Assembly (NCBI GenBank): GCA_002841595.1
Contig: PHAD01000007.1
Span: 1 to 42,052 of the forward strand
Length of the DNA stretch: 42,052 nucleotides
Direction: 5' to 3'
Source: Firmicutes bacterium HGW-Firmicutes-12
GTDB taxonomy: Bacteria; Bacillota; Peptococcia; DRI-13; PHAD01
Shown: piece by piece, positions 770-37,801 of the stretch
Layout of the letters: every line of letters starts with the position of its first letter
How positions within the stretch are numbered: the stretch's first letter is position 1
Translations under genes and position numbers: made by a program
The notes under the pieces: generated by a model
What the model was told of the DNA's origin: nothing
Databases searched by the model: none
The model's input: only the letters and a program-made list of their open reading frames with translations

Positions 770-2464
770 TTGAAAAAAGATGGAATTGTAGAATTTGACC
801 GTAATTTAGGTCATATGGTCAGGACAGCTACCCAAAGTCATATTGAGGTTAAGCCTTTTTACGAACCCGATGACATTGCTCATTTAGATTATGAAAATGA
901 CCTGGCTGATCCAGGGGCATATCCCTATACCCGTGGGATTTATCCCGATATGTACAGGACTAGTTTGTGGTTGAAGTCATTTATTGTTAGTTACTCTACC
1001 CCTGAAGAAACAAATGAATCATTTAAGCAGTATATTGCCCAAGGTATGACTGATCTGCGTTTACTGGCTGATTTGCCGACTCAGTCAGGTATAGACCCGG
1101 ATCATCCGGCAGCCTGGAACAGCATGATGTGTGGCGGTGTAGCGACCTATGCATTGCCGGTATATGAGAAAATGCTCGAGGGTCTTCCCTTGGAGAATGT
1201 CCATTATGAGTTGGCCCATTGTGGTATTTCTAATTTCATTTATTTCCATGCGCTTTTGATAGCCCATATGGAGAACAATGGTTATGATGCTGCAAAACTT
1301 CGTGGTAATTCCATAAATGATCCGGTACGGGCAAAGCTAGTGTACGCTTCTCCGGATTTTCCCACCCATGTGGCACGTCGAGTTTGCTTAGATCATATTG
1401 AATACTCGGTAAAAAAGACACCAAAATGGAAAGCGATAGCTCCTAATGGTGTTGACCCTTGTCAAGGAGGTATGGATGCTGTTAAGGAACTAGGAGGGGC
1501 ATTGTCTTTAGCTACGGCGGTTATGAAAGACTTAGAGAAACGCGGCACTAGTCTGGACGAATATGGTGCTATGGTATTTGCTCTAGATGCCGAGTCTGAT
1601 TTCTTTGAGACTATTGCCAAATTCCGCGCAGCTAGAAGAATGTGGGCTAGAATTGCCAAAGAAACGTTTGGGGCAAAAACCAAAAGAGCACTACAATTAA
1701 AGATTGGGATACGTACTTCCGGTTTATCCTTACAAAGCCAAAAACCATTAAACAATGCTGCCAGGGTTACTTTGCAGATACTCAGTTGCGTACTAGGGGG
1801 AGTTAACTCGCTAGACGCCTCCAGTATTGATGAAGCTGTTGGTTTGCCAGGTTATGAAGCCAGGATATTCAACCTGGATACCCAACATATCATTACACAC
1901 GAAGCAAATATTCCTTTGGTTGCTGATCCGTTGGGCGGGTCATATTATCTTGAATGGCTCACCGATAAGATGGAAAAAGATGCTAACGAATATATGGCCG
2001 AGATAGAAGAACGCGGTGGTATTTTTGAATGTCTGGATAGCGGATGGTTGAATGGTATTATGGAGCAAAACAGACTGAAACTTCAACGGGAGAAAGCCGA
2101 AGGCAAACGACTCATTATAGGCGTGAATTCTTTCCAGGGTGAAGAGGGTCCGATAAATAAGGCGGTCAGGGGGAGTGCCTACAAGGTCCCCACTGAGCAA
2201 CTGCGTCAGGAACGTGTAGACGAAGTTATTGCATTTAAGAATAGTCGTGACTATGCAAAAGTTAAACAAACCATCAAACAGTTGTATCTTGATACTAAAG
2301 AAAATCGTAATATTAGCCGTGCAGTGGTTGAAGCGGCTAAAGTTGGCGTAACTATAGGTGAATTTGCCGGTGTTGTTCGCCTAGCTTATAATTTGAATTT
2401 CGATCCATTGAACCAGATTGATGCACCTGGGTTTATTATAGATGCTATAGAGGAGTGTAAATAA
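770..2464 (+). CDS. Methylmalonyl-CoA-mutase-family large subunit, active site divergent
   Basis: This 565-aa protein is a separate large (substrate-binding TIM barrel) subunit of an adenosylcobalamin-dependent acyl-CoA mutase, similar in size to isobutyryl-CoA or 2-hydroxyisobutyryl-CoA mutase large subunits. Family landmarks are clear: YPYTRGIYPDMY, ADLPTQSGIDPDHP, FFETIAKFRAARRMWARI, RTSGLSL and ADPLGGSYYLE. Aligned by eye to Propionibacterium mutase, key residues differ: Tyr89 is Ile72, Arg207 is Tyr192, the Tyr243-His244 pair is Val228-Asp229, and the GTIQ thioester loop reads GNSI. The reaction and substrate are therefore open. The longest frame begins with GTG at 761, but AGGAG at 757-761 touches that codon; TTG at 770 has proper spacing and is chosen. 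The B12-binding subunit starts one base after the stop codon. Confidence is high for the family, low for any named mutase activity. Confidence 0.88.
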   Translation: MKKDGIVEFDRNLGHMVRTATQSHIEVKPFYEPDDIAHLDYENDLADPGAYPYTRGIYPDMYRTSLWLKSFIVSYSTPEETNESFKQYIAQGMTDLRLLADLPTQSGIDPDHPAAWNSMMCGGVATYALPVYEKMLEGLPLENVHYELAHCGISNFIYFHALLIAHMENNGYDAAKLRGNSINDPVRAKLVYASPDFPTHVARRVCLDHIEYSVKKTPKWKAIAPNGVDPCQGGMDAVKELGGALSLATAVMKDLEKRGTSLDEYGAMVFALDAESDFFETIAKFRAARRMWARIAKETFGAKTKRALQLKIGIRTSGLSLQSQKPLNNAARVTLQILSCVLGGVNSLDASSIDEAVGLPGYEARIFNLDTQHIITHEANIPLVADPLGGSYYLEWLTDKMEKDANEYMAEIEERGGIFECLDSGWLNGIMEQNRLKLQREKAEGKRLIIGVNSFQGEEGPINKAVRGSAYKVPTEQLRQERVDEVIAFKNSRDYAKVKQTIKQLYLDTKENRNISRAVVEAAKVGVTIGEFAGVVRLAYNLNFDPLNQIDAPGFIIDAIEECK

Positions 2465-2876: not shown

Positions 2877-3818
2877 ATGAACAAGACAATCGACACAGGA
2901 GTAGTAATTGAGATGATCGAAAGGGGTAACCGGCGTGGTTTGGCCAGAGCGATTACCTTAGTCGAGAACGGTGGAGAGGAAAAAGAGGTATTATTGGATT
3001 ATGCCTATAAGAAAGTACCCACACCAACCTTGGTGGTTGGAATAACTGGCGCAGGCGGAGCCGGTAAGAGTACTTTGATTGATAAACTGATAGCAGAATA
3101 CCGCGCAAACGGTAATACTGTAGGCGTTATTGCAGTAGACCCTTCATCGCCTTTCACTGGTGGAGCCTTTTTGGGGGATCGGGTTCGAATGAGTAACCAT
3201 AATACTGATATTGGTGTTTTTATCCGGAGTTTTGGCAGTCGAAATTGTCTGGGGGGTATTTCCGAGGCTGCAAAAAGTGCACTTTATTTGTATAAGGCCT
3301 TTGGTTTTGATGTGATTATCGTCGAAAGTATTGGTGTAGGACAAGATGAAACGGAAATTTCGCGATTTGTAGATGTAAACACGCTAGTTCTCGTCCCTGG
3401 GTTGGGTGATGCGATGCAGATGACTAAGGCGGGTGTGCGGGAAACTGCCGAAATGTTTATCATTAATAAGTCAGATAAACCAGAAGCAGAGATATTAAAG
3501 GAACATCTTGAGAGCTCCTTTGGTATACTACCAATCGAATCAAGACCACCTATTGTAAGTACTATAGCTAGCGATGGTATTGGTGTTAAAGAAGCAATTG
3601 CAGAGATAGAAAGGGTTGCAGAAAAACAAAAATACTTCGCGGATACAAAACGACGCGCAAGAATCTGGGCAGAATTAAATTCTTCTATTTGGTATTTACT
3701 CCATCTGAAATTTCAAGATTCAATTAAAGATATGGAGGAACAAGTATATCTGGGTCATTTGACACCTTTTGAAGCTTCAAAGAAATTGGTAGAATACATA
3801 AATTACAAGAAAGATTAA
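2877..3818 (+). CDS. meaB: MeaB/ArgK-type GTPase, mutase cofactor chaperone
   Basis: This 313-aa G3E-family P-loop GTPase protects and reloads adenosylcobalamin mutases. Walker A GAGGAGKST lies near residues 58-66, followed by DPSSPFTGG, LGDRVRM, ESIGVGQDE (G3 region) and NKSD (G4, guanine recognition). The family sequence LVPGxGDELQ reads LVPGLGDAMQ here; this area corresponds to the switch that contacts the mutase, so the change may track the altered mutase partner (inference). The ATG at 2877 is preceded by a weak GGGCGG site and lies six bases after the small subunit, consistent with translational coupling. The gene is the last of the operon; a terminator follows at 3842. Confidence 0.93.
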   Translation: MNKTIDTGVVIEMIERGNRRGLARAITLVENGGEEKEVLLDYAYKKVPTPTLVVGITGAGGAGKSTLIDKLIAEYRANGNTVGVIAVDPSSPFTGGAFLGDRVRMSNHNTDIGVFIRSFGSRNCLGGISEAAKSALYLYKAFGFDVIIVESIGVGQDETEISRFVDVNTLVLVPGLGDAMQMTKAGVRETAEMFIINKSDKPEAEILKEHLESSFGILPIESRPPIVSTIASDGIGVKEAIAEIERVAEKQKYFADTKRRARIWAELNSSIWYLLHLKFQDSIKDMEEQVYLGHLTPFEASKKLVEYINYKKD

Positions 3819-3841: not shown

Positions 3842-3876
3842 AATGTTCTGTCGCGTAAGTGGCAGAACATTTTTTA
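3842..3876 (+). terminator. Intrinsic terminator after meaB
   Basis: An 11-bp stem (AATGTTCTGTC with GGCAGAACATT, one G-U pair) with an 8-base loop is followed directly by a run of T. It closes the mutase operon. Confidence 0.9.
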
Positions 3877-4023
3877 TAAACTATACTCTAAATCTTTGCT
3901 TTTAAAGTATTAAGGAAAATGTAATATATTCCGTAAAGTGAAATATGGTTAATATGGAAATACTACAAGCTGGTGGTGTATACTATGTATGTAATGAGGA
4001 GACAGCACAGAGGGGGTAAATCA

Positions 4024-4572
4024 GTGGAAAAACGCCAGGAAAGAGATAAGCGCTATCAGGAAGCATTTGAGGATATAACGCAAACACTATGGCGCTGTAA
4101 TGAAAAATATAATTTAACAGAGGAAGAGAATCATCCACAGACTTTGCGCTTTAAGCTGCTTATGGAAAGATGCACTACAGAGAGAAGACTCCTGGAAGAA
4201 ATAAGCTTACCCTGTCGTTTCATTCTCGAACATTTTTCAACATTTATGGGTAAACCTGATCAGACATTAGGTTTTTCTTTTGGCACTCTGGAAGTGGGAC
4301 GCGGGATTCTAAATGATTTTTGTATAGATGAATGGGGTAACGTTTTCCTTATTATAGGTAGCATTCGTTTAGGTTGGCGCGATGCAGATTATCAATATCT
4401 TTTTTACCCAGACAAGGTAATTCTACGTTCTTTTGATCGTATTAAACCGGAGATCCATCTGTTTTTCAATTTTGCTTTTAAATATTCCAAGCTAATACCG
4501 GGCTTTAGCGAAGTAGCAACTGATGAGCAGACACTTTATTGGCACCCTGATTTGTTTAATGATGTAGAATAA
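4024..4572 (+). CDS. Unrecognised soluble protein
   Basis: I do not recognise this 182-aa protein. The frame can be extended upstream to GTG at 3973, but an AGGGGG ribosome site at 4011-4016 fits GTG at 4024 best, giving an N terminus rich in charged residues (EKRQERDKRYQEAF). Residues about 1-60 look helical and possibly coiled; the later part (for example FGTLEVGRGILNDFCIDEWGNVFLIIGSIRLGW) alternates hydrophobic and polar residues as in a beta domain. There is no signal peptide or membrane helix. It stands alone between two intrinsic terminators (3842 and 4585), so it is probably a single-gene transcript. Codon use looks like that of its neighbours. It is likely a real gene of unknown function. 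Confidence 0.7.
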   Translation: MEKRQERDKRYQEAFEDITQTLWRCNEKYNLTEEENHPQTLRFKLLMERCTTERRLLEEISLPCRFILEHFSTFMGKPDQTLGFSFGTLEVGRGILNDFCIDEWGNVFLIIGSIRLGWRDADYQYLFYPDKVILRSFDRIKPEIHLFFNFAFKYSKLIPGFSEVATDEQTLYWHPDLFNDVE

Positions 4573-4584
4573 ATTTATTAAAAG

Positions 4585-4610
4585 TCACCAATTATGGTGA
4601 TTTTTTTTTT
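4585..4610 (+). terminator. Intrinsic terminator
   Basis: The stem TCACCA/TGGTGA with loop ATTA is followed by ten T residues (4601-4610). It ends the transcript of the unknown gene at 4024-4572. Confidence 0.88.
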
Positions 4611-4668
4611 GTTAAGGAACCTTTTACATCTAATTTAATAATCTAATTAGGGTAAGGGGGTAGAGTGT

Positions 4669-5655
4669 ATGCTCAAAATACTGGATTGTATTGATGCCGG
4701 CTCAGAATACTGTCCTTGTCACTTGGCTGAAACCGGGGAATGTATTATGTGTTCTCAGCTGCAGGGCAAGACTTTTTGTGATTGTAGAAGCTGGAAGGGA
4801 GTATGTATATATCAGGAGTTTACTAATAACAGATATCAGAAAAGAGAACAAAGACAAAGTAAGCTATGCCACATTTTGCATCGCGAGGAAGTTAGCGAGG
4901 AGCTATTCATATTAAGAATTAAGACGCATAAGGATATGGCTAGAGAGCTAAATGTACCCGGAGCATATGTGTTTTTACGTAGTAGTGAGAATGCGGACTA
5001 TTATGATACCCCGATGTCCGTAATGAAGGTCGATGAACATGAAGGTACAATTACAACAGCCCTACAGATCCGTGGTATCAAGACTAAAGCTCTTAAAAAT
5101 CTTAATGAGCAGATAGAAGTTAGAGGTCCTTACTGGAATGGAATTATGGGTCTTAAATATATTAAAGGGTTAAGAGGCAGTAAAGTACTTCTTGTTGCGC
5201 GAGGTGTGGGCCAGGCTTCGGCGTTGCCAGTAGCAAAAAAACTGGTTATATCAGGGAACAAGGTAACAGTAATTTTAGATAAGGGTAGTAGTGGGATTTT
5301 CACTGAAACGTACTTTAATGAATTAGGGTGCAATATCGTACACAAACCACTCTTAGAAGGAAAAGGTTTCAAGATACCTCAGGAAACCCTCGAATATATG
5401 AAAATGAGGATACAAGAGGATGAAATAAAACTAGTTTTTAGTGGAGGTTCTGAAAGGCTTCATGAAGGTATTGCTGAATTCTTGCTCTCATTGCAGGAAA
5501 AGCCTTACTTTACGTGCTCTAATGACGCTAAATTTTGCTGTGGTGAAGGTATATGTGGTAGCTGCCACATTCGTTTGAAAGACGGCAGTAGGATAAAAAC
5601 ATGTAAGACACAGCTTAACCCTTTTTTGCTATATGAAGGGAGGATAAATTTATGA
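4669..5655 (+). CDS. PyrK-like FAD/NAD and [2Fe-2S] reductase with N-terminal Cys-rich domain
   Basis: The 328-aa product resembles the electron-transfer subunit of dihydroorotate dehydrogenase and related sulfide dehydrogenase-like reductases. It has three parts. Residues 1-51 carry eight cysteines (7, 15, 17, 25, 28, 37, 39, 46) in an unusual array, CPC-x7-C-x2-C-x8-CDC-x6-C. Residues about 60-270 are a ferredoxin-reductase-like FAD and NAD(P) module, with ARGVGQASALPVA as nucleotide-binding loop and VFSGGSERLHEG later. The C terminus has C291-x4-C296-x2-C299-x12-C312, the PyrK-type [2Fe-2S] motif. Start ATG 4669 has AAGGGGG upstream. The stop overlaps the start of the next flavoprotein by four bases (ATGA), implying a coupled two-protein complex. 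Pyrimidine genes are absent nearby, so an orotate role is unlikely; donor and acceptor are unknown. Confidence 0.85.
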   Translation: MLKILDCIDAGSEYCPCHLAETGECIMCSQLQGKTFCDCRSWKGVCIYQEFTNNRYQKREQRQSKLCHILHREEVSEELFILRIKTHKDMARELNVPGAYVFLRSSENADYYDTPMSVMKVDEHEGTITTALQIRGIKTKALKNLNEQIEVRGPYWNGIMGLKYIKGLRGSKVLLVARGVGQASALPVAKKLVISGNKVTVILDKGSSGIFTETYFNELGCNIVHKPLLEGKGFKIPQETLEYMKMRIQEDEIKLVFSGGSERLHEGIAEFLLSLQEKPYFTCSNDAKFCCGEGICGSCHIRLKDGSRIKTCKTQLNPFLLYEGRINL

Positions 5656-6932
5656 GTAAAGTAGTTATTATTGGTGGAGGTTGGGCAGGTTGTGCAGCGG
5701 CTATAACAGCTAAAAAAGCAGGAGCCGATGTAACCGTATTAGAAAAAACAGACTTACTTTTGGGATTGGGTAATGTCGGTGGAATTATGAGAAATAATGG
5801 AAGATACACTGCAGCTGAGGAGATAAGAGCATTAGGAGCACCTGAGTTAATTGATATAACAGACCGTTTAGCACGACATACGAATATTGATTTTCCTGGA
5901 CATAAACATGCTAGTCTTTATGATGTGAATCTAGTTGAGCCTATGGTTCGTCGAGTTCTATCTGCAATGGGTATAGAATTGCTTTTGGAGACCCGAGTAA
6001 TTGATGTAAAAATTAAAAGTAATACAATCGAAAGTGTTTTAACTGCAAGTGAAGAGTGGATACATGGCGATGTTTTTATTGAAACAACTGGTTCAACCGG
6101 TCCTATGGGCAATTGTTTAAAATATGGCAATGGATGCTCCATGTGTATCCTACGATGTCCAACATACGGCCCGCGCGTAAGTATAAGCCAACGTGCCGGG
6201 GTTGAAGATATCTTGGGGCAGCGAACGGATGGAGAATATGGGGCGATGAGTGGATCCTGCAAATTGAGTAAAGGGTCATTGAGTCCTGAACTGGTGATGC
6301 AATTGGAAAAAGAAGGTATGATGGTTTTACCGGTACCTACTGAAGATGTAAACATGGATAAACTCAATATAAAGGTATGTCAGCAATATGCCCTAAAAGA
6401 ATTTGCAGAAAATCTGGTCTTGCTGGATACGGGGTATGTTAAATTAATGACCTCCTATTATCCACTAGATAAACTGAGAAAAATTAAAGGTTTGGAGAAT
6501 GCCAGGTATGATGATCCTTATTCGGGCGGGCGTGGAAATTCAGTACGTTATCTTTCGATGGCACCTCGTAATAACAGTATGAAAGTTGACGGAGTATCAA
6601 ACTTACTATGTGCAGGTGAAAAGTCAGGGCTGTTTGTCGGTCATACCGAGGCGATTGCTACAGGTAGTCTAGCTGGGCATAACAGTGTTCGCTTGTCCTT
6701 GGGGATGCCTTTATTGAAGCTTCCACGAGTTTTGGCTTTGGGTCACTTGATAAGCTATGCCAATGAGATGCTCAAAGAACCAGAAGGTCGCAAAAATCGC
6801 TATACTTTTGCTGGTGGAAAATATTTTGAACAAATGAAAGAAACAGGCTTATATACACTGGATATAGAGTCAATTGAACGTAGAATTAGAGAAATAGGTC
6901 TAAAAGATATTTATACGTATAAGCTGGTTTGA
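5652..6932 (+). CDS. FAD-dependent oxidoreductase with internal Cys cluster (TrmFO/GidA-like)
   Basis: This 426-aa flavoprotein begins with the dinucleotide-binding fingerprint VVIIGGGWAGCAAA (residues 4-17) and ends with a GidA/TrmFO-like FAD segment, LLCAGEKSGLFVGHTEAIATG. Between them residues 155-169 read C-x6-C-x2-C-x3-C-P, which resembles a [4Fe-4S] ligand set and is not part of ordinary TrmFO. It is translationally coupled to the PyrK-like reductase upstream (four-base overlap), so the likely electron path is NAD(P)H to FAD and [2Fe-2S] in the first protein, then to FAD and a possible cluster here. The substrate is unknown. It is shorter than GidA (about 620 aa) and close to TrmFO (about 435 aa), but the coupling and Cys motif argue against a simple tRNA methyltransferase. 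Confidence 0.82.
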   Translation: MSKVVIIGGGWAGCAAAITAKKAGADVTVLEKTDLLLGLGNVGGIMRNNGRYTAAEEIRALGAPELIDITDRLARHTNIDFPGHKHASLYDVNLVEPMVRRVLSAMGIELLLETRVIDVKIKSNTIESVLTASEEWIHGDVFIETTGSTGPMGNCLKYGNGCSMCILRCPTYGPRVSISQRAGVEDILGQRTDGEYGAMSGSCKLSKGSLSPELVMQLEKEGMMVLPVPTEDVNMDKLNIKVCQQYALKEFAENLVLLDTGYVKLMTSYYPLDKLRKIKGLENARYDDPYSGGRGNSVRYLSMAPRNNSMKVDGVSNLLCAGEKSGLFVGHTEAIATGSLAGHNSVRLSLGMPLLKLPRVLALGHLISYANEMLKEPEGRKNRYTFAGGKYFEQMKETGLYTLDIESIERRIREIGLKDIYTYKLV

Positions 6933-35899: not shown

Positions 35900-36406
35900 G
35901 TGCGTCCAGCGAAGCTGGCAAATGCTAACAGGTGAAAGTCCTGTAGTGGTAAAGGTAGGGCAGCCACTTAGTCAGTAACCAGCGTATGGAGTAATTCATG
36001 CGTTGAAGCGTTACGGAATGTTCCTCAGGGAGCAGACAAACTGGCGGGTTGTAACATGAAGTGAATACTGCCGCACCGTTATTTACATTCTCGAAAGGGA
36101 ACAACAGGGAGTCGAGCTGAGACATCAACAGCGAAGACAGCAGACGGTATGAAGAACCCTAAATGCAATACCGAAGAACCCTGCGGTGTAGAGGTAACGA
36201 CACGTTAGGAAAGTATTTGTCGGAACTGGAGAGAGCCTACTTTGCACAGGAAACTGTAAAGAGGACGCATATAAGCGAAAGCGAAATTGCAGTCCTGCAA
36301 AGAGGCAGTCAGAAGTGCTCATAGTACCAACGATTGTACAGACAGCAAAACTGTACATAGGAAAGGGGCACAACTTTATTCAAGTCTGTAGAGGAGGTAG
36401 GTACTG
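35900..36406 (+). ncRNA. Group II intron ribozyme, domains I-III and start of IV
   Basis: This 507-base non-coding stretch holds the 5' end of the intron (GTGCG), short hairpins typical of domain I (for example CCAGCGAAGCTGG at 35906-35918 and CAGGTGAAAGTCCTG at 35929-35943) and the EBS1 loop at 36122-36128. I could not delimit domains II and III by eye. A possible weaker EBS2 is TTACG (36011-36015) with CGTAG in the exon (35886-35890). Confidence 0.75.
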
Positions 36407-37705
36407 GTGATTGCCGATAAAGCTATTAACACCCATGAAAAAGTACGAGACATCCAGAACAGACTATACCTTACAGCCAAAGCTGACCGAAAGAGAAAGT
36501 TCTATGCGATGTATGACAAGATATACCGTAAGGATATTTTGGAGGAAGCATGGAAACGGGTAAAAAGAAATGGTGGGGCAGGCGGTATCGATAAAGTCAG
36601 CATTATTGACGTGAAAGCGTACGGCGAAGAAAAACTGTTGGACGAAATAGCGGAGGAATTGCGAACAGAGAAATATCGGTGCAAGCCTGTCAGACGAACC
36701 TATATTCCAAAGGCAGATGGCAGGAAAAGAGCATTAGGAATACCTACGATTAAGGATAGAATAGTACAGATGGCGGCAAAGATAGTAATAGAGCCGGTAT
36801 TTGAAGCCGATTTCCAGCCTTGTTCGTACGGATTCCGACCAAAACGAAGTGCGCTACAGGCAATGGACAGGATATTCGAAGCGGCTGATAAAGGCGGTGC
36901 TTTGTGGGTAATTGATGCTGACATTAAAGATTATTTCGGCAGTATAAGCCATGATAAACTGCTTTTACTGGTAGAGCAGAGGATAACCGACCGCAGGGTG
37001 CTGAAGCTTATAAAAGGCTGGCTGAAAGCAGGAGTGCTTGAAGCTGGACAATATAGTGAAAGTACACTTGGAGCACCACAGGGTGGAGTTATATCGCCGC
37101 TTTTATCCAACATATATCTGAATTATTTTGATGTATTCTGGAATAAAAGATTTAGGCACGTGGGCGAACTGGTACGATACGCAGATGATTTTGTGATATT
37201 GTGCAAAAGGAAAGCACAGGCAGAAGAAGCCTTGAAAGCGGTAAAATGGATTATGGATAAGCTGGAACTGACATTGCACAGCGAGAAAACGAAGCTTGTT
37301 GATATGTATTTCGGGAAAGACTGCTTTGATTTTCTGGGCTTCAATAATAGATTTCAGCGGTTCAGAAACAAAAGCTGGAAGTGGTATTGGACATTACAGC
37401 AAGTTCCATCCCAAAAGGCTATGAAGAAAATGAGAGCCAATATCAAAGAGGTGTTTGCCAGTGCGAGCAAACTGCTGTTGAGCATGGAAGAAATGGTGAA
37501 GCTGCTCAATCCTAAAATCATTGGCATGAGAAATTATTATGCCAGGCGTTTTACAAGACCATGGCTGTGGAAGATAGAGAAGTACATCAATTACAAATTT
37601 ACTCGGTGGTACAATCGGAAGAAACAACGTAACTACAGGTTGGGAAATGCGGCAAAGGTCAGAGAATTGACATTGCAGGCAGGGCTAGAAAGTATTTGCG
37701 GCTGA
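36407..37705 (+). CDS. ltrA: Group II intron reverse transcriptase/maturase
   Basis: The 432-aa protein reverse-transcribes the intron and helps it fold. RT motifs are clear: GGAGGIDKVSI, RRTYIPKADGRKRALGIPT, YGFRPKRSALQAM, DADIKDYFGSISH, GAPQGGVISPLLSNIYL, and the catalytic YADDFVILC. The maturase domain X follows (GMRNYYARRFTRPWLW, then YINYKFTRWYNRKKQRNYRLG). There is no C-terminal HNH endonuclease, so mobility would have to use an endonuclease-independent route, for instance priming at replication forks. GTG 36407 has a strong GAGGAGGT site (36391-36398). The reading frame is uninterrupted. Confidence 0.95.
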   Translation: MIADKAINTHEKVRDIQNRLYLTAKADRKRKFYAMYDKIYRKDILEEAWKRVKRNGGAGGIDKVSIIDVKAYGEEKLLDEIAEELRTEKYRCKPVRRTYIPKADGRKRALGIPTIKDRIVQMAAKIVIEPVFEADFQPCSYGFRPKRSALQAMDRIFEAADKGGALWVIDADIKDYFGSISHDKLLLLVEQRITDRRVLKLIKGWLKAGVLEAGQYSESTLGAPQGGVISPLLSNIYLNYFDVFWNKRFRHVGELVRYADDFVILCKRKAQAEEALKAVKWIMDKLELTLHSEKTKLVDMYFGKDCFDFLGFNNRFQRFRNKSWKWYWTLQQVPSQKAMKKMRANIKEVFASASKLLLSMEEMVKLLNPKIIGMRNYYARRFTRPWLWKIEKYINYKFTRWYNRKKQRNYRLGNAAKVRELTLQAGLESICG

Positions 37706-37731
37706 ATGCTGAAGGAAGAAGAATATCGGAA

Positions 37732-37763
37732 AGCCGTATGCGGGAAAACCGCACGTACGGTTT
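37732..37763 (+). ncRNA. Group II intron domain V
   Basis: The hairpin AGCCGTATGCGG GAAA CCGCACGTACGGTTT, written here in parts, has the catalytic AGC triad at its foot, the bulge and the GAAA tetraloop, as in group II domain V. Confidence 0.92.
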
Positions 37764-37801
37764 GATGAGGGGGTGGTGGCAATCCCACTGCTCTACTCTA
37801 T

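Follow-up and report, generated by a model that had tools for sequence, protein, structure and literature searches.

Which substrate would be rearranged by a B12-dependent mutase whose residues at many substrate-binding sites of methylmalonyl-CoA mutase (MCM) have been replaced? The question is raised by the first genes of a stretch of 42,052 nucleotides (the window), which is contig C165 of the Firmicutes bacterium HGW-Firmicutes-12 genome (2.78 Mb, 189 contigs). To our knowledge, few acyl-CoA mutase reactions of the MCM fold are known. We propose, at a probability of roughly 60%, that the window encodes an adenosylcobalamin (AdoCbl)-dependent acyl-CoA carbon-skeleton mutase from a new, uncharacterised subfamily of the MCM superfamily, which would act on a CoA ester from the anaerobic breakdown of an imported carboxylic acid. 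What is shown directly is the gene set, the conservation of the protein, its clade, the selection acting on it, its fold and the gene context of its relatives. A new carbon-skeleton rearrangement, already suggested in the original prediction, is also judged plausible here.

Operon organization, cofactor binding and fold

The operon lies on the forward strand. The first gene seen (2-751) encodes a 249-aa DUF6125 protein (223 bits to PF19620) with unassigned function, and any genes upstream of it are missing because the contig starts there. It is followed by the genes for the large, substrate-binding mutase subunit (770-2464; 564 aa), the B12-binding small subunit (2466-2870; 134 aa) and the GTPase chaperone MeaB (2877-3818; 313 aa). 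A terminator-like hairpin with a 13-pair stem and a T-rich tail (3842-3871) closes the operon. The first in-frame ATG, GTG or TTG of the large-subunit ORF is GTG 761. However, a GAGGAG stretch (about 756-761) precedes TTG 770, which makes TTG 770, located 18 bases after the DUF6125 stop codon, the better start and the original residue numbering right. Residues are numbered here from TTG 770; numbering from GTG 761 runs 3 higher.

Since the hairpin sits after MeaB, the genes at 3973-6932 are unlikely to be members of the operon. A 199-aa ORF without Pfam or NCBIfam match (3973-4572) is followed there by a PRK05802-type FAD/NAD protein and a GidA-like FAD oxidoreductase. The GC content of the operon (0.41-0.43) is near that of the window (0.40), and a recent foreign origin is not supported by composition. 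An Rfam scan found no riboswitch; group II intron ends (RF02003, RF00029) are located at 35926-37801, together with a reverse transcriptase ORF (36407-37705). A role of DUF6125 as dedicated mutase partner is also unsupported, as its closest homologues (in genomes G026 and G428) have no nearby mutase on the stretches read, and literature searches returned nothing on this domain. In another genome (L152 808-4401, G432:C119), however, about seven DUF6125 copies form a tandem array that faces the genes of another divergent mutase, its neighbouring B12 subunit and an acyl-CoA dehydrogenase.

The large subunit passes the cut-offs of PF01642 (445.5 bits, cut-off 22.1) and TIGR00641 (367.5 bits, cut-off 303.8). 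Automatic annotation would therefore probably name this protein and its relatives methylmalonyl-CoA mutase, a name contradicted by the residues of the clade described below. The sequence features of AdoCbl mutases are present. The small subunit (TIGR00640 102 bits, PF02310 62 bits) carries the AK-x-G-x-DIHERG motif as AKSGCDIHERG, together with the GG motif, and Glu355 of the large subunit corresponds to the adenosyl-binding Glu370 of MCM. A motif alignment shows that the small subunits keep the Lys, Asp and His of K-x-G-x-DxHxxG and the GG motif. MeaB scores 256.6 bits to TIGR00750 (cut-off 240.75) and 233 bits to PF03308, and MeaB-like genes, named by eye, also follow the mutase pair in L173 and L174. 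A CobO-like ATP:corrinoid adenosyltransferase gene (named by eye) adjoins the other mutase of the host genome, in which PF01923 found no match. With the B12 motifs kept, MeaB above its cut-off and a CobO-like gene in the host, AdoCbl chemistry is very likely retained, and the earlier view that B12 subunit and chaperone are intact holds.

An AlphaFold2 model of the large subunit, built on an 11-sequence alignment, reached a mean pLDDT of 76.7 and a pTM of 0.82. It is weakest at the first strand (pLDDT below 50 at residues 65-71 and 73-77). Its closest matches among solved structures are human MCM (TM-score by query 0.82-0.84) and HcmA, the large subunit of 2-hydroxyisobutyryl-CoA mutase (HCM; PDB 4r3u; TM 0.84-0.86, rmsd 2.6-2.8). 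The fused IcmF-type architecture, with mutase, GTPase and B12 domain in one chain, is absent: three separate ORFs are found, and NF045497 scores 124.9 bits against a cut-off of 1500. No glutamate mutase family appeared among the models reported.

Substitutions in the substrate pocket

Residues were mapped by pairwise alignment to solved mutases and by a multiple alignment with more than 50 other mutases, using the numbering of Propionibacterium MCM. The substitutions originally listed, and the lack of gaps at their sites, were reproduced. Tyr89 is Ile72, found together with Ser70 in place of Arg87 (977-985); Thr195-Ile196-Gln197 are Asn180-Ser181-Ile182, so that the GTIQ loop reads GNSI (1304-1315); Arg207 is Tyr192 (1343-1345); and Tyr243-His244 are Val228-Asp229 (1451-1456). 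A two-residue insertion falls between strands 3 and 4; at Arg283 one residue is absent. Beyond R87S, the changes added to that list are T85L, S114R, S164E, the missing R283, S285V, F287A, H328G, Q330R, Q361N and N366S. Three of them introduce Arg97 on strand 2 (MCM Ser114; 1058-1060), Glu147 on strand 3 (Ser164; 1208-1210) and Arg315 on strand 7 (Gln330; 1712-1714); these residues and Asn180 all lie on predicted barrel strands in the model. R82S belongs to the window protein alone. Y75, M78, K234 and E370 are kept.

With conservation defined in 33 non-redundant other mutases, seven of nine conserved positions known as substrate contacts are changed, compared with 86 of the 257 that are not contacts (odds ratio about 7, p about 0.01). 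Significance is lost at the two strictest thresholds of conservation, which leave only one to four contact positions and so deprive the test of power. We take R87, T85, S114, Q197, R283 and S285 to be CoA contacts of MCM.

The authors of PMC2847961 ascribe the close likeness of the known CoA mutases at their binding site to the binding of CoA by all of them, which makes the divergence of the window clade notable. This divergence, the dismantled set of CoA contacts and the exchange of Ser114 and Ser164 for Arg and Glu throughout the clade would fit a substrate that is no CoA ester at all, but a free polar acid, rearranged possibly before ligation as in glutamate mutase, with Arg114, Glu164 and Arg330 as charged anchors in a closed barrel. 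We consider this unlikely, though worth weighing. Arg82 is retained in nine of the ten clade members, and in sequence and fold the CoA mutases (TM 0.84) are far nearer to the protein than is glutamate mutase (TM 0.43-0.45, 12-13% identity).

Phylogeny and conservation of the subfamily

Two maximum-likelihood trees were constructed from 57 and 58 proteins. The window protein falls within a ten-member clade (support 100/100), whose sister is the pair L050a/L055a (100/99), and the clade lies inside a 26-row branch (100/99) that holds no characterised enzyme among those placed. MCM (Propionibacterium, human, ScpA) and HcmA fall on the other side, joined in the first tree by the IcmF-like L133 on a long branch. 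The proposal that the protein stands apart from characterised mutases thus holds for MCM and HCM in both trees and for IcmF in the first only. The two outcomes that the original prediction named as refuting it, a place inside a characterised clade and the usual residues at other sites, were checked in part, and neither turned up. Xaut_5043 (L065) was not used as an HcmA reference, as it and 4r3u fall apart in the tree. In L149 (506-9405), a mutase related to Xaut_5043 is encoded among apparent succinyl-CoA-ligase-like subunits and a citrate/malyl-CoA-lyase-like protein, all named by eye.

Residues and tree together rule out membership in MCM or HCM. At the MCM positions Tyr89, Arg207, His244 and Gln197 the window protein has Ile, Tyr, Asp and Ile. 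The resemblance of Ile89 to HcmA, noticed earlier with the remark that the other sites do not match, is borne out in both respects, as HcmA has Ile89 but keeps His244, Gln197 and the CoA contacts. The shared Ile89, the rank of 4r3u as the closest solved structure by sequence (E 1.4e-78) and the composition of the tree, with EcmA, IcmA, IaaGH and pivalyl-CoA mutase left out, would fit a drifted version of a known activity, namely 2-hydroxyisobutyryl-CoA, isobutyryl/pivalyl-CoA, ethylmalonyl-CoA or benzylmalonyl-CoA mutase. We hold this to be improbable, since the tree separates the window protein from HCM and MCM with strong support, HcmA keeps R87, S114, S164, Q197, Tyr243-His244 and Q330, and the changes of the clade are uniform across its ten proteins.

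Relatives were collected by a scan of 84,980 species genomes, followed by targeted searches in the classes of genomes G429 and G430. The scan yielded L047 (81% identity), L048 (64%), L046 (60%) and L049 (50%), and also the more distant pair L050/L055 (34-36%). The targeted searches added G477 (72%), G463 (70%), G893 (65%), G819 (64%) and G449 (47%). The nine relatives at 47-81% identity come from metagenome-assembled genomes (MAGs) of Desulfobacterota and Dehalococcoidia. No close relative was found among 398 sampled genomes of the window's own phylum, where ordinary mutases reach only 34-37%, and paper searches gave nothing recognisable on this subfamily.

All ten proteins have Ile89, Ser or Ala at 87, Arg114, Glu164, Ile or Val at 197, Tyr or Phe at 207, Asp or Asn at 244, Val285, Gly or Ala at 328, Arg330 and Glu370, and all lack Arg283; Arg330 is otherwise found only in L050a/L055a. 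The recurrence in relatives, which the original prediction had proposed to look for, is therefore clade-wide, and since nine relatives share the pattern the substitutions are not due to chance. Because the same rebuilt pocket is present in the window protein and its nine relatives, the substrate of the window enzyme is probably one that no B12 mutase has so far been known to use.

Comparison of the window gene with L047 gave pN 0.14 and pS 0.88, synonymous sites being saturated wherever the window gene was compared, and L050a and L055a differ by dN 0.15 and dS 0.97. These values indicate strong purifying selection on the large subunit, which rules out decay. A decaying gene or a sequence error might be suspected from a one-base frameshift in L047, where the lost base may be an assembly error; such an origin is scarcely credible for the window protein, given its intact ORF, the low pN against pS and the same changes in nine independent relatives, and the earlier judgement that the gene is not decayed stands. 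The protein could instead be a catalytically inactive or regulatory homologue, like the inactive MCM beta subunit, as the MCM catalytic residues Y89, H244 and R207 are gone. This appears very improbable: unlike the beta subunit it is encoded with a His-ligand B12 subunit and MeaB, it keeps Glu370, and its pattern is conserved under strong purifying selection.

Two of the genomes with relatives carry many further PF01642 proteins. G428 (source of L046 and L048) and G429 (source of L047) have matches at 20 and 11 places, some of them partial, and many of these proteins have altered active-site residues and form several uncharacterised branches; the MAGs may be impure. In two Dehalococcoidia, L050 (1726-5918) and L055 (6792-10991) hold a conserved tandem arrangement of two different large-subunit genes, both accompanied by a separate B12-subunit gene.

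Gene context, candidate substrate and known systems

Two relatives lie in apparent operons of CoA-dependent catabolism. In L171 (70% identical to the window protein), a single strand encodes the mutase, a B12 subunit, an HMG-CoA-synthase-like protein with a ChsH2-type OB domain, an SCP2-type thiolase, a LivG-like ATPase, an AMP-forming CoA ligase and more Liv-type genes. In L172 (47%), mutase and B12 subunit are found among an acyl-CoA dehydrogenase, an enoyl-CoA hydratase, a class III CoA-transferase, two thiolases, a ChsH2-like zinc-ribbon/OB protein, a CoA ligase and Liv-type genes. A gene for the D-component of 2-hydroxyglutaryl-CoA dehydratase is near the mutase of L049. On contig C169 the host itself carries, together, homologues of the L171 thiolase (51.5%) and of the HMG-CoA-synthase-OB fusion (41%). 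They are part of a run (L182 8910-14119, G000:C169) that also encodes a VOC protein, a CaiB-like CoA-transferase and an SDR, and that represents a possible partner pathway; apparent TRAP transporter genes come after it.

The contexts of L171, L172, L049 and C169 agree with a CoA ester as substrate in a pathway that degrades an imported carboxylic acid. Against it stand the loss of the CoA contacts listed above, the lack of an adjoining CoA gene on the window contig, which begins at DUF6125, and the fact that a clear CoA cluster surrounds only two of ten relatives. Arg and Glu in place of two barrel-core serines could also constrict the channel in which the pantetheine arm usually lies. However, in L056, another PF01642 protein, none of the seven conserved CoA contacts tested is left, and its gene still comes after those of a thiolase and a 3-hydroxyacyl-CoA dehydrogenase. 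Many uncharacterised relatives in which the CoA-binding arginines are kept have Asp, Asn, Tyr or Phe at position 244, and one with Asp244, on a Paraburkholderia plasmid, adjoins acyl-CoA dehydrogenases and an enoyl-CoA hydratase. With L056 and the Paraburkholderia relative in such contexts, residues alone should not be read as an absence of CoA. We accordingly do not accept that losing His244 proves unusual chemistry and give this loss less weight than the original prediction did. The suggestion made there that no CoA thioester might be used is not supported, given L056 and the two CoA-catabolic clusters. A substrate other than a CoA ester keeps a minor chance for the window mutase. Unlikely, too, is the bolder idea that the clade is the first branch of the MCM fold to give up CoA, its barrel being closed by Arg114, Glu164 and Arg330 and a free carboxylic acid being rearranged before activation; if true, it would represent a new class of carbon-skeleton rearrangement.

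For the preferred reading, an acyl-CoA mutase, we infer the catalysis, the CoA ester and the substrate class as follows. The large subunit would form the TIM barrel, the small subunit would carry B12 with its His ligand, and MeaB would load and repair the cofactor. By analogy with the superfamily, closing of the two domains would break the Co-C bond, the 5'-deoxyadenosyl radical would abstract a substrate hydrogen, a group that is most likely the carbonyl of the acyl-CoA would migrate to the neighbouring carbon, and the hydrogen would be returned. The substrate would most likely be a CoA ester formed in a beta-oxidation-like, thiolytic anaerobic breakdown of an imported carboxylic acid, and the new set of Arg114, Glu164 and Arg330 with Asp244 would have to bind it differently. 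Human MCM Arg228, the equivalent of R207, pairs with the substrate carboxylate (PMC10356863). As this residue is Tyr or Phe in every member, methylmalonyl-CoA or a similar malonyl or succinyl ester held in the usual way is ruled against, and a carboxylate of this type bound as in MCM appears unlikely. The only other PF01642 protein of the host (L001/L185 7272-9047, G000:C176) is also non-canonical (Leu89, Asn207, Asn244), with B12-subunit, MeaB-like and CobO-like genes adjoining, and the host genome seems to have no ordinary methylmalonyl-CoA mutase.

The clade shows a CoA-mutase binding site that was rebuilt and then kept across unrelated anaerobes. It is one of several uncharacterised branches, and one sediment MAG with family matches at 20 places and another at 11 point to an extensive, still unexplored radiation of these mutases among sediment bacteria and to more kinds of B12 rearrangement in anaerobic carbon turnover. 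The L171 and L172 operons offer testable guides to a substrate.

Among known systems, HcmAB of Aquincola tertiaricarbonis is similar in its separate large and small subunits, its fold, Ile89 and its rank as best PDB sequence match. HcmA differs in keeping R87, T85, S114, S164, Thr195/Gln197, Tyr243-His244, R283, H328 and Q330, and it shares about 32% identity from a separate branch of the tree. MCM of Propionibacterium, human and E. coli (ScpA) has the TIM barrel and B12 domain chemistry, E370, K-x-G-x-DxHxxG and a MeaB partner in common with the window system, whereas its Tyr89, Arg207, His244, Gln197, Arg87, Arg283 and serine lining are replaced here, and it forms a separate branch. IcmF, the fused isobutyryl-CoA mutase, resembles the window proteins in fold (TM 0.71-0.75 by query) and in a MeaB-like chaperone, but is one chain of about 1,070-1,110 aa in place of three genes, with 22-23% identity in the fold search. 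The operon logic of IaaGH, the benzylmalonyl-CoA mutase of anaerobic indoleacetate degradation (PMC8360864), with CoA ligase, CoA-transferase, mutase, acyl-CoA dehydrogenase and uptake protein, resembles the L172 cluster; by its description, on which the comparison is based, it differs in using a malonyl-type ester that needs a carboxylate site (PMC8360864). Glutamate mutase is likewise an AdoCbl carbon-skeleton mutase, one that uses a free acid, but it is remote from the window protein in both fold and sequence (TM 0.43-0.45, 12-13% identity).
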